The position numbers and the translations under genes are program-made. Source: Pseudomonadota bacterium (GTDB lineage: Bacteria; Pseudomonadota; Gammaproteobacteria; Burkholderiales; Gallionellaceae). Taken from it: a DNA stretch of 64,000 nucleotides. The DNA is taken from NCBI GenBank assembly GCA_021782365.1, contig JAJXVB010000002.1:177306-241305 (forward strand). Reading direction: 5' to 3'. Of the stretch, positions 2,366 to 39,750 are shown piece after piece (position 1 is the first letter of the stretch; each line of letters opens with the position of its first letter). The notes under the pieces were generated by a model that was not told the DNA's origin, did not search any database, and worked only from the letters and a program-made list of their open reading frames with translations.

Positions 2366-2392
2366 TAAAGTTTTTCTAAATGCTGCCGATAA
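2366..2392 (+). promoter_or_regulatory. sigma-28 (FliA) promoter, exact consensus
   Basis: TAAAGTTT at 2366-2373 and GCCGATAA at 2385-2392 are separated by 11 bp. This matches the enterobacterial FliA consensus TAAAGTTT-N11-GCCGATAA with no mismatch. Transcription would start near 2399. It points towards flhD, yet a terminator lies about 45-80 bp downstream of the expected start. Confidence 0.85.
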
Positions 2393-33423: not shown

Positions 33424-34190
33424 TGGCTGCTCGACGCAAACGGGAAGAGCACGACAATCACGATCGCTGGTTGATCTCTTATGCCGATTTCGTGACGCTA
33501 CTGTTTGCCTTCTTCGTAGTGATGTATGCGATTTCATCGGTCAATGAAGAAAAATACAAAACCTTCAGCAATTCCCTGAGCCAGGCCTTCAGCCAGCAGC
33601 CGGGTTCAACTGCGAGCATCAGCAAGCCTTCATTGCAGTCGTTGGTCGATAAGCGCGATGCGCGCCTGGCAGCTCAACAGCGTCAAGCCAGGGAAGAAAT
33701 GCAGGCGGTGGAGGAGAATCTTCAGAAGGCGCTGGGCCCCGAGATTGCTGATGGCCAGATCGGCCTGCGCAAGTCTTCTCGCGGCATGGAAGTCGACATC
33801 AGCGCCAGTGCGCTGTTCAACGAGGGAGATGACAAACTGCAGGGAGATGCAAAACAGACCCTGCAAAAGCTGGCTCAGGTGCTGAGCAAGGAAAACAAGG
33901 CTATCGAGGTGGAAGGGCATACTGACAATGTGCCGATCAAGAACGCGAAGTTCCCGTCAAACTGGGAATTGTCCTCCGGGCGAGCAGGCAGCGTGGTCAG
34001 GACTCTGGCCGCATATGGTGTGCCGGAAAGTCGGATGACGGCGGTAGGAATGGCGGCAAATCAGCCAGTCGTGCCCAATGATACGCCGGAACATCGCGCA
34101 CAGAATCGGCGGGTTTCGATCACGATATTGTCACCGAAGTTTGATCGGTCGAGTCAGGGTATGCAGACCCCTGAGGCAAGAGGCAACTAA
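33423..34190 (+). CDS. motD: second flagellar stator protein, MotB/MotD-like
   Basis: This 255-residue partner of MotC has a short N-terminus, a membrane helix (WLISYADFVTLLFAFFVVMYAIS) with the ion-binding Asp22, and a periplasmic OmpA-like domain (IEVEGHTDNVPIKNAKFPSNWELSSGRAGSVVRTL; HRAQNRRVSITIL). The ATG at 33423 overlaps the motC stop by one base. An upstream reading-frame extension is only the shadow of motC. Its 3' end overlaps the convergent flgN gene by 4 bp. Confidence 0.92.
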   Translation: MAARRKREEHDNHDRWLISYADFVTLLFAFFVVMYAISSVNEEKYKTFSNSLSQAFSQQPGSTASISKPSLQSLVDKRDARLAAQQRQAREEMQAVEENLQKALGPEIADGQIGLRKSSRGMEVDISASALFNEGDDKLQGDAKQTLQKLAQVLSKENKAIEVEGHTDNVPIKNAKFPSNWELSSGRAGSVVRTLAAYGVPESRMTAVGMAANQPVVPNDTPEHRAQNRRVSITILSPKFDRSSQGMQTPEARGN

Positions 34191-34657
34191 CCCAAGCCCA
34201 GCGTTCTTCCGCTGCCCGTTGAGAAACTGGTCTGTCCGTTCGGGCCGTACAGATTAGCCTGGTTGACCGCACGGCTCAAGGCACCGATCAGTTGCTGATT
34301 GTGGCGCAGTTTGAGCTGTATCAGCTCGCCATTGATGCGGTTCAATTCGTGCGCCTGATCACCCAGGATGCGTATGCTTTGCCATAGATTGAGGCCTTCC
34401 TTGCTGTTTTTTTCCAGCCAGTTCTGGATATTTTTGGCGGTGAGTTCGGGAATCAAGGCTTGCAGGAGGCTGTGGCGCGTTTCTGCGATCTTGTTGATCT
34501 TTACGGCATGGGTTGATTTCTTTTCTGCAAGCTCAAGAAGATTATCCGTGCTGAATTCTGTCAGCATCTTCTGTTCCTTCTGGAGCAGAGAAACGAAACT
34601 TTGAAGGGATGCTTGCTCTTCTTTCAGGGCGGCCAAGAGATTGGCAAGCTGCGTCAT
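34187..34657 (-). CDS. flgN: FlgK/FlgL export chaperone FlgN
   Basis: This 156-residue helical protein escorts the hook-filament junction proteins FlgK and FlgL to the export gate. Family marks are the coiled LLAALKEEQASLQSFVSLLQKEQKML start, NGELIQLKLRHNQQLIGAL, and the C-terminal NQANLYGPNGQTSFSTGSGRTLG. The start codon overlaps the flgM stop (ATGA). Both cargo genes lie at 47373-50481. Confidence 0.93.
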   Translation of the reverse strand: MTQLANLLAALKEEQASLQSFVSLLQKEQKMLTEFSTDNLLELAEKKSTHAVKINKIAETRHSLLQALIPELTAKNIQNWLEKNSKEGLNLWQSIRILGDQAHELNRINGELIQLKLRHNQQLIGALSRAVNQANLYGPNGQTSFSTGSGRTLGLG

Positions 34658-34959
34658 GCTTGGCTGTTTTTGATCAGATCATGAACAGACTGAATCAGGC
34701 GATCCGCCACCACGCTCGAGTTGACCTTGAAGTTGCCATTGCTGATGGCCTGTTTGATTTGCGCAACCTTGTTCGCATCGACGATGGGCGAATTCGCCAT
34801 GCTCGCCTGCATGCTGGATATCTGGGGGGAATTCGAACCCAGAGAGACGCTGGTGCCGGACTGCTGCGGTGCAGGGTTGCTCTTTGCGTTGCTTGCGCGC
34901 GAGGCTGCAGCTCCTGGAATTCCGGTACTGGCTGTATTGGATGGCTTCTCGATTTTCAT
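34654..34959 (-). CDS. flgM: anti-sigma-28 factor FlgM
   Basis: This 101-residue largely unstructured protein binds FliA until the hook is finished, then is exported. The N-terminal signal-like region (MKIEKPSNTASTGIP) and the C-terminal sigma-binding part (SIVDANKVAQIKQAISNGNFKVNSSVVADRLIQSV) match the family. The ATG at 34959 behind AGAGGA is preferred to a TTG at 34977. It is transcribed from its own sigma-28 promoter (35003-35029), giving feedback control. In many relatives flgM is co-transcribed with flgA, but here 4.1 kb of unrelated genes separates them. Confidence 0.93.
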   Translation of the reverse strand: MKIEKPSNTASTGIPGAAASRASNAKSNPAPQQSGTSVSLGSNSPQISSMQASMANSPIVDANKVAQIKQAISNGNFKVNSSVVADRLIQSVHDLIKNSQA

Positions 34960-34977
34960 GATGATCCTCTTGCTCAA

Positions 34978-35174
34978 GCGGTAATTCGCGGCCTTGTTTG
35001 CTTTATCGGAAAGTCCTGAAAAAACTTTAGCATCATTTGGAGCTATTTTTGGGCGGCTTCATTGTAGCATGAAGAACAGCAGACGAATAACCGGGCATTT
35101 TGCGCCTTGTTTCAAGGAAAAGAGCAGGCTCATGTGTGCTAATCTTGAGCCTACCTTACCGTGGAGCGCATATT
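34978..35174. other. flgM-decarboxylase divergent intergenic region
   Basis: On the minus strand this region holds the flgM sigma-28 promoter. On the plus strand an extended -10 (TGCTAATCT, ending at 35145) without an obvious -35 could drive the metabolic cassette. A small hairpin (CCTTG and CAAGG around TTT) lies at 35105-35117. Confidence 0.4.
35003..35029 (-). promoter_or_regulatory. sigma-28 (FliA) promoter for flgM-flgN
   Basis: Read on the minus strand it is TAAAGTTT (35029-35022), 11 bp, then TCCGATAA (35010-35003): one mismatch from the full consensus. It lies 44 bp upstream of the flgM start. Confidence 0.8.
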
Positions 35175-36596
35175 TTGGAAACATCAGGGGAAACGCTGGA
35201 CCCTCAAGACTGGCAGGTATTCCGGCGGCAAAGCCATCGCATGCTGGATGACATGCTCGATTATACCGAGTATCTGCGCAACCGACCGGTCTGGCAGCCT
35301 ATTCCGCAAGAGGTTCGAGATTTGTTCCAGAAACCCATGCCGATAAAATCTGGCGACATGGCTGAAATTCATGCGATGTTCATGCAGAATGTGCTGCCCT
35401 ATGCGATAGGCAATGCGCATCCCGGCTTCATGGGCTGGGTTCATGGGGGGGGCACGCCGGTCGGCATGATGGCGGAGATGCTCTCGGCTGGTCTCAACGC
35501 CAATCTTGGCGGACGGGACCAGATTCCGGTTGAAGTCGAGAGGCAGATGCTGCGCTGGGTAAGGGAGATCTTTGCGTTTCCGGATACGGCAAGCGGGCTT
35601 TTCGTCACCGGAACTTCCATGGCCAACTTCATCAGCGTGCTGGTTGCGCGCACCGCAGCGCTGGGAACAGCTGTGCGCGAAACAGGCTTGTACTTGGAAC
35701 ATGGCCTTGTCGCGTATGCTTCGGCCAGCGCGCATGTCAGCATCGCACAGGCGCTGGATATGGCGGGCTTGGGTACGTCTGCGCTGCGCAAGGTGGCGCT
35801 GGATGAAAATTTCAGGATGGATGTGAATGCACTCGAAGCGGCCATCAGGCGGGACTTAGAGGCTGGCCTCAGGCCATTCATGATCGCAGCGACGGCGGGT
35901 TCGGTGGATGTCGGGGCGATCGATCCTATAGATGAGATCGCCGAACTCGCAAAGCGTTATCAATTATGGCTGCATGTGGACGGGGCATACGGTGCGCTGG
36001 GGATGTTGTCGGAGGAGATCAGGCCTATGCTTAAAGGCATGGAGCGCGCCGATTCCATCGCATTCGATTTCCACAAGTGGGGACAGGTTCCCTACGATGC
36101 AGGATTCGTGCTGGTGAAGGACGGTGAGTTGCATCGCAGCACCTTTGCCTCACCCGCGGCCTATCTTCAGCGTGAAACGCGCGGCATGGCGGCTGGCTCT
36201 CCCTGGCCTTGCGACTTTGGTCCCGATCTCTCTAGGAGCTTCAGGGCGCTGAAAACCTGGTTCACGCTCGAAGTCTATGGAACAGAAAAACTGGGGCGAT
36301 CGATTTCCAATACCTGCGCGCTGGCGCAGTATCTGAAACAATGCATCGAAGCTTCTCCGATGCTTGAATTGATGGCTCCGGTTGCGTTGAACATTGTATG
36401 CTTCCGCTACCGTGGGGATGACAAGATCAATGCGGACATCGTCGTTGGTCTCCAGGAATCCGGCATCGCGGCGCCTTCGACCACAAAGATAAATGGACGG
36501 CTTGCGATTCGCGCGGCCATCGTCAATCACCGCACCGAACGACGCGATGTCGATGCGTTGGTGAATGCGGTGATTGAACTGGGAGGAAAGTTATGA
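35175..36596 (+). CDS. PLP-dependent (group II) amino acid decarboxylase-like protein
   Basis: This protein of about 473 residues is a fold-type-I PLP enzyme of the aromatic/diaminobutyrate/glutamate decarboxylase group. NAHPGFMGWVHGGGTPVGMMAEML is the substrate-side segment, LHVDGAYG provides the aspartate to the pyridine nitrogen, and the Schiff-base lysine is in AFDFHKWGQVPYDAGF. It would decarboxylate an amino acid to an amine; the substrate is unknown. The start chosen is TTG 35175 with GGAG 8 nt upstream. A TTG at 35100 lacks a ribosome binding site. Its stop overlaps the next start by 4 bp. It is not a flagellar gene and has no known motility role. Confidence 0.85.
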   Translation: METSGETLDPQDWQVFRRQSHRMLDDMLDYTEYLRNRPVWQPIPQEVRDLFQKPMPIKSGDMAEIHAMFMQNVLPYAIGNAHPGFMGWVHGGGTPVGMMAEMLSAGLNANLGGRDQIPVEVERQMLRWVREIFAFPDTASGLFVTGTSMANFISVLVARTAALGTAVRETGLYLEHGLVAYASASAHVSIAQALDMAGLGTSALRKVALDENFRMDVNALEAAIRRDLEAGLRPFMIAATAGSVDVGAIDPIDEIAELAKRYQLWLHVDGAYGALGMLSEEIRPMLKGMERADSIAFDFHKWGQVPYDAGFVLVKDGELHRSTFASPAAYLQRETRGMAAGSPWPCDFGPDLSRSFRALKTWFTLEVYGTEKLGRSISNTCALAQYLKQCIEASPMLELMAPVALNIVCFRYRGDDKINADIVVGLQESGIAAPSTTKINGRLAIRAAIVNHRTERRDVDALVNAVIELGGKL

Positions 36597-37795
36597 GTGA
36601 AGCGGAAAAGGAGCTGATCGGACTCGCGCGCTTGTTGCGCATGACGATCGAAGGTCATGACATGGGATCCCTTGGCATGAAGCTGATCGCGCGCGCGGGG
36701 GAACAACCAGCTGATGCCTGTGCGCTGATGGACCTTGCGACGATACTGCAGCTCAGAGGGGAACGGGAGCTTGGATTGAACATACAGCGCCAAGCATTGT
36801 CGATGCAACAGATTTACGCGGTTACCGGCGCCTCTCCTGAAAAGGCGGAAATCAGGGTGCTTTTGCTCATGAGCGAGGGCGATCTGATGGCCAATTCTCC
36901 GATCGAATGCCTGATAGAAAACAAGAATGCTTCCTTGCATATCGTATATGTGACGGATAAATTGGGCATGCCAGATTCCTTGCCTGAACACGATTTGCTT
37001 TTCGTTGCGATCGCCGAGTCTGAAAAAAACAATCCCATTCTCAAGAAAGTGTCAGAAAGAATTGCCTCATGGCCCGTACCCGTACTCAATAATCCCATGC
37101 ACATCGCCGCGCTATCGAGGGATAATTGCGCGGTCTTGCTGAAAGATATCCCAGGGCTCGACATGCCTCAAACGGTGAAGCTTGATCGGGATGGCCTTGA
37201 AAGGCTATCGGCCAATGATCTTGCGATCAAGGATGTGCTGGGAGGAGGGGGCTATCCGGTATTGATCCGGCCTGTCGATTCGCATGCCGGAAATGAACTT
37301 GAGAAGATAGCTGATGTGGCCGGGATAAGGCGCTATCTCGCTTCCTCGGATTCCACCGAATTCTATGTTTCGCGCTTTGTGGACTACAGAAAGGCGGACG
37401 GACAATTCCGCAAATACCGCATCGTGCTGATAGCGGGCCGCCCCTATATCTGCCACATGGCCATCTCTTCTTACTGGATGATTCATTATGCAAATGCAGG
37501 CATGAATGAGAGTGCAGAGAAAAGGGATGAGGAAGCGCGCTTCATGGAAGGATTCGATGAATTTGCATCCCGTCATGCGACAGCATTCAAGGCGATCAAT
37601 GAAAAAATCGGGCTGGACTATCTGGGCATAGACTGCGCCGAAACAGTGGATGGACGCCTCCTGATCTTCGAAGCAGACAGCTGCATGATCGTACATGCGC
37701 TAGACCCCGTCGATCTCTATGGCTACAAGCAAAAACCGATAAACCGCCTCTTCGATGCCTTCTATGAGATGCTGCTCGATGCCAAGGGCACTTAA
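36593..37795 (+). CDS. TPR-like/ATP-grasp ligase of unknown substrate
   Basis: This 400-residue protein has an N-terminal TPR-like helical segment (about 1-80; ACALMDLATILQLRGERELGLNIQRQAL), a middle domain and a RimK/glutathione-synthase-like ATP-grasp domain. Visible parts are VPVLNNPMHIAALSRDN, GYPVLIRPVDSHAGNEL, FVDYRKADGQFRKYRIVLIAGRPYICHMAIS and LDYLGIDCAETVDGRLLIFEADSCMIVHALDP. The last contains the metal-binding glutamate. ATP-grasp enzymes join a carboxylate to an amine or thiol. Start ATG overlaps the decarboxylase stop. I know no characterised homologue with this architecture. Confidence 0.82.
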   Translation: MSEAEKELIGLARLLRMTIEGHDMGSLGMKLIARAGEQPADACALMDLATILQLRGERELGLNIQRQALSMQQIYAVTGASPEKAEIRVLLLMSEGDLMANSPIECLIENKNASLHIVYVTDKLGMPDSLPEHDLLFVAIAESEKNNPILKKVSERIASWPVPVLNNPMHIAALSRDNCAVLLKDIPGLDMPQTVKLDRDGLERLSANDLAIKDVLGGGGYPVLIRPVDSHAGNELEKIADVAGIRRYLASSDSTEFYVSRFVDYRKADGQFRKYRIVLIAGRPYICHMAISSYWMIHYANAGMNESAEKRDEEARFMEGFDEFASRHATAFKAINEKIGLDYLGIDCAETVDGRLLIFEADSCMIVHALDPVDLYGYKQKPINRLFDAFYEMLLDAKGT

Positions 37796-39086
37796 GGTGG
37801 AGCCAAGCATCGAGGAGCTGCTGGTCGCAGGAAACGACAGGCGCATTTCGCTTGATCCTGCAACCGGGCTCAACAAATACGGCTGTCCTCCCCGACCCGA
37901 CCCGGCGCTTCTGGCCTTTGGTTCATCCACTGCATCGGTGATTTCGGTGTCCTCCTTTGATGAAGTTTCCCGTCAGCACGAGCGTCTGCTAAAAGGTGCG
38001 GACACGCTAGAGAAAGCTTGGCAAAGGGTAAGCGAAGCGCTCCTGTCAGATGTGTCGGATATGGGGGCGAGCCTGGCATTCGCTTCTTCCGGGACGGACG
38101 CTCATGCTTTGGCAGTCCGATCCCTTTCGGCCTTTTCGAAGCTTTTCGTTTTGATGGTGGAGGAGTCTGAAACGGGCAGCGGTGTGCGAGCCGCGATGTC
38201 CATCTATCATCCCGAAGTCAAGGCAGTATCGATCAGAAAACAGGATGGCATGCCGCGTTCGGCAGAGGATATCGACCCGGAGGTGGTCGCATCGGTCGAG
38301 TCAGCCGTTGCCAGAGGTTGCCATGTGTTGCTGGTGATGATCGACCAGTCGAAGACCGGGATGATCTCGCCCAGTGTTTCCTGTGCGATGGCGCTCAGGA
38401 AACGCTATCCGGAAAAAATCAGCGTGCTGGTCGATGCCTGCCAGTTCCGCATGGCGCCGCCCACATTGCGTGCTTATCTAAGTCAGGGATTCATGGTCGC
38501 GATCACAGGATCGAAATTCCTCACGGGGCCCGCATTTTCAGCCGCACTCATGCTGCCGCAGGGATTTGATCTGGAAATTCAGGAAAAGAAGGATATGGGG
38601 CTCTTGCTGCGCTGGGAAGCCGCTTTGGTCGAATACAGGCGATTTCATGCGCTTTCACAGAGCCAAATCACGAACATCATGGAGTCGTTCGGGGAGACAG
38701 TGCGAAAACGTCTTGCAGAGGATTCGAGGTTCGAGTCGCTCACCGTGCCGGCATTGGACCGCAGGCCGCTTGTGACTGACGCAAGCTGGGATCAGCTTCA
38801 TAGCATTTTCCCATTCCTGCTATACCATCGGGGTCAGCCGCTCAATCATGAAGAAACGCAGCGTATATACAGATTGCTGCAGGAATCGGACAGCAACGTG
38901 ATCGTGGGGCAGCGATGCCAGCTCGGGCAGCCGGTTTTTTGCGGAAAGGGAAGAAGCGCTCTACGCATCGCGTTAAGCGCCAGATTGATCAGCGATGCAG
39001 CGGACCAAGGCATGGATGGACTTCTGAATGATGTTTTGGCCGTGCTGGACAAGACGGCCTATCTTGTCGACAAGATCAGGGATTGA
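37779..39086 (+). CDS. uncharacterised PLP fold-type-I enzyme (aminotransferase/desulfurase-like)
   Basis: This protein of about 435 residues has the layout of class-V-like PLP enzymes. FASSGTDAHALAV is the cofactor phosphate region, then VMIDQSKTGMISPS, VDACQFRMAP (the aspartate contacts the pyridine nitrogen) and AITGSKFLTGPAFSAALMLP with the probable Schiff-base lysine. EESETGSGVRAAMSIYH is another marked segment. The reaction is unknown; aminotransferase, lyase or desulfurase activity are all possible. The start is ATG 37779 (17-bp overlap with the ATP-grasp gene), with GTG 37797 as an alternative. Its 3' end overlaps convergent flgA by 11 bp. Confidence 0.8.
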   Translation: MPRALKVEPSIEELLVAGNDRRISLDPATGLNKYGCPPRPDPALLAFGSSTASVISVSSFDEVSRQHERLLKGADTLEKAWQRVSEALLSDVSDMGASLAFASSGTDAHALAVRSLSAFSKLFVLMVEESETGSGVRAAMSIYHPEVKAVSIRKQDGMPRSAEDIDPEVVASVESAVARGCHVLLVMIDQSKTGMISPSVSCAMALRKRYPEKISVLVDACQFRMAPPTLRAYLSQGFMVAITGSKFLTGPAFSAALMLPQGFDLEIQEKKDMGLLLRWEAALVEYRRFHALSQSQITNIMESFGETVRKRLAEDSRFESLTVPALDRRPLVTDASWDQLHSIFPFLLYHRGQPLNHEETQRIYRLLQESDSNVIVGQRCQLGQPVFCGKGRSALRIALSARLISDAADQGMDGLLNDVLAVLDKTAYLVDKIRD

Positions 39087-39750
39087 TCCGAACCGCACCT
39101 TCTTCTGTGGCCGTGCCGCTGATCACGCGTCCGGAATCTATGCGTACCTGGACGCTATCTCCGGGACCGGCATTGCTGAGCGCAACGCCTGAATTGCTCA
39201 GCGTGAATCCGCCGCCTTGAACGACGATCTGCACGACCTGCCCTTGTCTCACCGTATAGTTAGCGCGCAGCATCTCGGGCCTGATGATCGTGCCTGCAGA
39301 GATGCTATAGCGCAGAACCTTCCCCAGCACGCGCTTTTCATCGGTCATGCCTACATCCTGCATGGTCTCCGTGCTCTGTCTTGCAATATCCTGGGAGCCT
39401 AACGTCTGCCCGCTTGAGAGGGGTTTTGCGCTGATGATCAAATTGCGCGTGATCTTGATCTGCACGGGGATGAAAATCCGCCATCCTTTTGCATCGAGGC
39501 AGCGCACGCCGACAGAAACGCGCCCTATGAGCTGGCTGCCGGCCGGCAGAAACGCCTCCATCCTGTTGCAGTTATCCAGTACAAGTCGGGGATCGATGGG
39601 CTCGACGGTGAAGGCGACTTTTCCTTCCAGATCAGCCGTCTGCTGCTTGATGAATGCAGTGGCCGTATCCTTCAATGCGGCGTGATCCTGCTCCGCAAAG
39701 GCAAAGGCGCAGTGCAAAAGAAGGCTTGCAATCAGCAGAAATTTCTTCAT
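39076..39750 (-). CDS. flgA: flagellar P-ring assembly chaperone FlgA
   Basis: This 224-residue periplasmic protein has a signal peptide (MKKFLLIASLLLHCAFAFA) and the SAF/FlgA C-terminal domain (KPLSSGQTLGSQDIARQSTETM; GTIIRPEMLRANYTVRQGQVVQIVVQGGGFTLSNSGVALSNAGPGDSVQVRIDSGRVISG). It aids FlgI polymerisation into the P ring. It is divergent from flgBCDEFGHIJ as in enteric bacteria, but is not followed by flgM-flgN, which lie 4.1 kb away beyond the metabolic cassette. Confidence 0.94.
   Translation of the reverse strand: MKKFLLIASLLLHCAFAFAEQDHAALKDTATAFIKQQTADLEGKVAFTVEPIDPRLVLDNCNRMEAFLPAGSQLIGRVSVGVRCLDAKGWRIFIPVQIKITRNLIISAKPLSSGQTLGSQDIARQSTETMQDVGMTDEKRVLGKVLRYSISAGTIIRPEMLRANYTVRQGQVVQIVVQGGGFTLSNSGVALSNAGPGDSVQVRIDSGRVISGTATEEGAVRINP

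Follow-up and report, generated by a model that had tools for sequence, protein, structure and literature searches.

A cassette of a putative decarboxylase, a predicted ATP-grasp ligase and a second predicted PLP enzyme linked to flagellar genes in the Gallionellaceae

The stretch of DNA analysed here, referred to as the window, is 64,000 nucleotides long and comes from contig JAJXVB010000002.1 of a member of the Gallionellaceae. Among its flagellar genes are three overlapping genes, A, B and C. These are predicted to encode a group II pyridoxal 5'-phosphate (PLP) decarboxylase, an ATP-grasp ligase with a helical N-terminus that resembles tetratricopeptide repeats (TPR), and a second PLP enzyme. 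Comparison of genomes and loci links the trio to the flagellum. As judged from gene content, bacteria that lack flagellum genes hardly ever carry it. The initial annotation had marked a role in motility as speculative; it is now backed by several different flagellar sites and by co-occurrence with the flagellar gene fliG. The cassette may serve in modification of the flagellum, in which A would make an amine and B would ligate it to a flagellar protein. This is offered tentatively, at somewhat less than an even chance.

The presence of C was compared with that of fliG in 100 genomes of the family and 300 genomes of the order, two sets that overlap and both include the own genome. Within the family, C was found in 27 genomes and fliG in 76, with fliG in all 27 carriers of C vs 49 of 73 non-carriers. 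Within the order, C was found in 38 genomes and fliG in 202, with fliG in 35 of 38 carriers vs 167 of 262 non-carriers. These carrier and non-carrier counts were read by eye from match lists and gave Fisher p values, uncorrected for relatedness, of 1.5e-4 (family) and 1.6e-4 (order). The distribution of C is patchy in both sets. A wide draw from the class had C in two of 369 genomes, one of them the own genome, and a search for related loci with C gave one locus.

The neighbourhoods of the trio were explored with tblastn, using flagellar proteins of the window and of locus L085 as queries. There are 67 genomes other than the own with a C match; the contexts of 65 were taken, and G459 and G644, with the match at a contig start, were left out. 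Flagellar genes lie within about 9 kb in 33 of the 65 loci vs two of 20 control windows, which were set by hand at round positions in six carrier genomes. The Fisher p of 8e-4 is only a guide because the loci are related to each other. Names of flagellar genes were taken from Pfam or, in the window, from their position and a reading of the sequence. The trio lies between flgM and flgA in 13 loci and in the window. It lies beside fliE and fliF-fliJ in six (L085-L087, L089, L095, and L096) and beside fliC-flaG-fliD-fliS-fliK-flhX in L048, L098, L129, L132, L136, L142, and again L085. Part of this fliC-to-flhX set is the neighbour in L083 (flaG only), L093, L097, and L154. The remaining sites are beside flgA-flgB (L084, L151, and L153) and on the fliR side (L130). 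A tree of A plus B (70 rows; quick, without bootstrap, midpoint-rooted for drawing) requires 14 changes of site label, and the fliC-to-flhX label taken alone requires six.

More distant loci were found by a search of the phylum. A was matched in 37 genomes, including the own genome, and the contexts of 20 were taken. The group g484, with genomes of 6-8 Mb and kinship at the level of the same phylum, possesses relatives of A at 60-64% identity. In the four g484 loci that were fetched, A and B are near flgE-like matches in all four and near flagellins in three; C is present in two of the four, and flbT was recognized by Pfam in one. The gene order in L252 is fliC-fliD-fliS-A-B-C.

The trio itself is a conserved unit. 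The initial annotation would have been refuted if the three genes rarely occurred together elsewhere, and their joint occurrence proved not to be rare. Of the 65 fetched loci with C, 60 have matches to A, B and C in this order and on the same strand. The count is of tblastn matches rather than intact genes, and it includes matches that are truncated at a contig end or disrupted (such as B in L098 and A in L041). The other five are L044 (cut by the contig), L049 (C alone, 29% identity), L130 and L131 (no A), and L152 (C only). In L130 and L131, a second B homologue lies beside B-C in divergent orientation. An additional B-like match is found in L096, on the opposite strand. A and B are continuous in one frame in L086 and L147. 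A search with the L086 fusion, whose length filter favours fusions, listed 120 relatives, of which 113 match both A and B, a few of them ordered B-A. At least 60 residues separate the matched A and B parts in 49 of these, and TPR matches were found between the two parts in both of the fused relatives examined. Pairwise protein distances correlate across 53 of the 60 complete loci, kept after a length filter (A-B 0.785, A-C 0.726, and B-C 0.617), and common descent alone explains part of this correlation.

Most of the named relatives of B and C are from Gallionella; Sulfuricella and Methylobacter are also represented. The B protein of L129 is identical to P0095, which is named Sulfuricella denitrificans skB26, and the trio of L129 adjoins flhX, fliK, fliS, fliD, flaG, and fliC.

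The layout in the window (Table 1) is confirmed as initially annotated, with three genes coupled by overlaps of 4 bp (A/B) and 17 bp (B/C) between flgM-flgN and flgA. The cassette is on the plus strand, and the flanking flgM-flgN and flgA are on the minus strand. An insertion at this point had been proposed. The spacing of flgA and flgM was compared in cassette-free flagellated relatives. The two genes are adjacent on the same strand, with gaps of 81-275 bp, in 19 of 20; the remaining relative showed no flgM in the vicinity. Thus, the cassette sits inside a flgA-flgM-flgN arrangement as an insertion. A single branch of the A plus B tree (SH-aLRT, a branch support value, 99) sets off all 14 rows that have the flgM-flgA site.

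Table 1. Cassette genes and flanking flagellar features, in positions of the window
Feature	Position	Strand	Evidence
flgN (flank)	34187..34657	-	PF05130, 85.2 bits
flgM (flank)	34654..34977	-	PF04316, 53.4 bits
Predicted sigma-28 promoter of flgM	35003..35029	-	TAAAGTTT-N11-GCCGATAA, 1 mismatch
Gene A, group II PLP decarboxylase family, 473 aa, TTG start	35175..36596	+	PF00282
Gene B, helical (TPR-like) N-terminus and predicted RimK/LysX-fold ATP-grasp ligase, 400 aa	36593..37795	+	
Gene C, predicted class V-like fold-type-I PLP enzyme, 435 aa	37779..39086	+	
flgA (flank), tail-to-tail with C	39076..39750	-	PF13144, 91.7 bits

It had also been suggested that flgM runs from its own sigma-28 promoter, and the sequence supports this. 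A sigma-28-like site with at most two mismatches is upstream of flgM in all 13 cassette loci (0.3 expected from shuffled sequence) and in 18 of 19 cassette-free loci scanned (0.5 expected). Since such sites are present in both types of locus, flgM would have its own promoter with or without the cassette. Across the window, the sigma-28 pattern has four matches at three or fewer mismatches vs 0.21 expected. One is a perfect match at 2366-2392 (+), upstream of an open reading frame at 2583 that is FlhD-like by reading only. Scans of the window for tRNA genes and Rfam families gave no matches.

By its sequence, A is a member of the group II PLP decarboxylase family, as had been proposed; it matches PF00282 with 226.1 bits vs a gathering cut-off of 27. 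Of 57 A rows, at least 95% have H300-K301, which aligns with the HK motif of solved relatives. K301 is presumably the PLP lysine. The loop tryptophan W344 aligns with the active-site W349 of the Ruminococcus gnavus tryptophan decarboxylase (RgnTDC). A resembles group II decarboxylases such as RgnTDC (4obu) and DfoJ (5o5c) in family, HK motif and loop tryptophan, and differs from the five solved relatives shown in a conserved loop, WPCD.GPDLSR, that is absent from those five. It would be expected to use PLP to decarboxylate an amino acid. A scores under the cut-off of every NCBIfam model that it matched. Rejected in this way were the tyrosine decarboxylase MfnA of methanofuran synthesis (TIGR03812, 94.7 bits vs 299.4), the L-2,4-diaminobutyrate decarboxylase RhbB (NF052646, 207.7 vs 900), and PanP (TIGR03799, 129.8 vs 606.1).

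The structure model of B has a helical N-terminus followed by an ATP-grasp domain, and a RimK/LysX-type fold is predicted with confidence. The best VIA matches of B are RimK, ArgX, and LysX. D347 and E360 are found in 100 of 100 B rows, and a third position is D in 98, N in one and A in one. These three positions may correspond to the acidic metal ligands (D, E, N) of ATP-grasp ligases. B would be expected to use ATP and to ligate. The window protein matches no Pfam or NCBIfam family. B showed no glycosyltransferase domain: in its model the helices are followed by an ATP-grasp domain, and this has no Pfam match. At least 3167 relatives of B were found among the candidates scored. The own genome also contains two B paralogues (47% and 34% identity), L002/L006 on C30 and L003/L007 on C14, the latter with a long N-terminal extension; no A or C match was found elsewhere in that genome.

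C is predicted with confidence, from its model, to have the class V-like fold of fold-type-I PLP enzymes, which agrees with its earlier description as a second enzyme of fold type I. K246 is conserved in 122 of 122 C rows and, from its TGSKF motif, is probably the PLP lysine. The window protein matches no Pfam or NCBIfam family, PF00266 included; PF00266 is present in one listed relative, P0226. A sequence search of the PDB with C gave a single match at E 0.98. Relatives of C number at least 1443 among the candidates scored. In L048 (8025-10538), C runs on into a class I S-adenosylmethionine methyltransferase domain (PF13649 and others), and the frame is likewise long (830 aa) in the related G724. 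One in-frame TAA lies within the C match of L116 (G525:C1:8784-10181), where C may be broken. The gene next after C in L083 (6383-7642) encodes an EarP-type elongation factor P rhamnosyltransferase (PF10093).

A possible course for the modification can be outlined. A would make an amine from an amino acid. B would bind its target, a flagellar protein, with the helical TPR-like part and couple the amine to one of the target's carboxylates by an amide linkage. The role of C would be to prepare the added group or to complete it. Modification is proposed because of the fold of B, the A-TPR-ligase fusions, the placement beside filament and cap genes, and the analogy with FlmG described below. It is possible, and stated with more reserve than a flagellum-linked modification as such, that the cassette represents a new class of flagellar post-translational modification in several proteobacterial lineages. 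In this class, a decarboxylase-ligase machine, which is a single A-TPR-ligase protein in many bacteria, would amidate a flagellar protein with a decarboxylated amino acid, and a new family of PLP enzymes would finish the group.

Several observations weigh against a flagellar modification. No flagellar gene is within reach in 32 of the 65 loci, four of which are contigs shorter than 6 kb, and all eight loci of genus g321 are without flagellar neighbours. Three carriers without a fliG match (G645, G679, and G766; 95, 96, and 82% complete) are all from g321, so the flagellar link is strong rather than strict. The control count becomes three of 20 if the weak window L201 (50-58 bits) is included. 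A sigma-28-like site is upstream of A in just three of 53 loci, and a general sigma-28 promoter for A is rejected. In the phylum search, eight of 20 loci have A with neither B nor C nearby, at 41-54% identity (L243-L245, L247-L250, and L254), and the A family is therefore wider than the trio; three further loci (L235, L236, and L246) have A and B without C. The Pfam profile scan gave no TPR match in the window B. Finally, the five flagellins looked at all end in LLR, not glutamate. A C-terminal glutamate of flagellin is thus not seen as the acceptor and a RimK-like addition to the flagellin tail is improbable; a side chain or a different protein would have to serve as acceptor.

In the main rival reading, the product of the trio is a free small molecule, namely a decarboxylated amino acid in amide form. 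It would serve as a signal, as a solute or as a compound of the cell surface, and would only be co-regulated with motility. This reading is conceivable, if doubtful. Two PLP enzymes and a ligase are enough for a small pathway, and the loci away from flagellar genes and the carriers that show no fliG are in its favour. Two genes that come after the trio in L045 and L135 look, by reading only, like the permease and the ATPase of an ABC transporter. The helical TPR-like domain of B and the A-TPR-ligase fusions fit the binding of a protein instead, and flagellar sites recur on the tree.

A role in regulation or in assembly is unlikely. The substrate of the ligase would then be a regulator or chaperone of the flagellum (FlgM, FlgN, FliS, or FlbT) or a chemotaxis protein, and not a structural component. 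The sites do adjoin flgM-flgN, fliS and flbT, but no single regulator adjoins all of them, and the flgM promoter is present with and without the cassette. Equally improbable is a passenger, a metabolic operon that settles in flagellar clusters which tolerate it or travel with it. Its patchy presence in the family and the order and the single branch with all flgM-flgA rows would suit a passenger; the several flagellar sites in distant lineages and the frequency of fliG among carriers in both sets do not.

In accordance with the earlier statement that no characterized pathway with this trio is known, no description of it was found in the literature searched, which consisted mostly of titles and abstract openings. 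Modification of flagellar proteins is known mainly as glycosylation and lysine methylation. If the proposal is true, a conserved decarboxylase/ATP-grasp/PLP set adds amine-amide chemistry to the known flagellar modifications, and a function is assigned to two large protein groups, B and C, whose members in the window match no Pfam family. The proposal can be tested in a cultured species, as Sulfuricella denitrificans skB26 carries the trio.

The trio can be compared with further known systems. The methanofuran-type pathway uses the decarboxylase MfnA, the ATP-grasp enzyme MfnD and the aminotransferase MfnC, the same three broad enzyme classes as the trio. The trio differs in its flagellar setting and in an A protein far under the MfnA cut-off; no search was aimed at the remaining genes of the methanofuran pathway. 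Among ligases, RimK appends glutamate at the C-terminus of a protein, according to the part of the source consulted (PMC4741518). B differs from RimK, LysX, and ArgX in its extra helical N-terminus, in the adjacent or fused decarboxylase gene and in having no NCBIfam match. An analogy in arrangement is offered by FlmG, which is described in the consulted part of its source as a TPR-glycosyltransferase acting on Caulobacter flagellins, with its TPR and enzyme parts tested for interaction with flagellin (PMC7591256). FlmG couples a TPR part to an enzyme domain and acts on flagellin; here, a TPR-like part precedes an enzyme part that is a predicted ATP-grasp ligase with two PLP-family partners rather than a glycosyltransferase.

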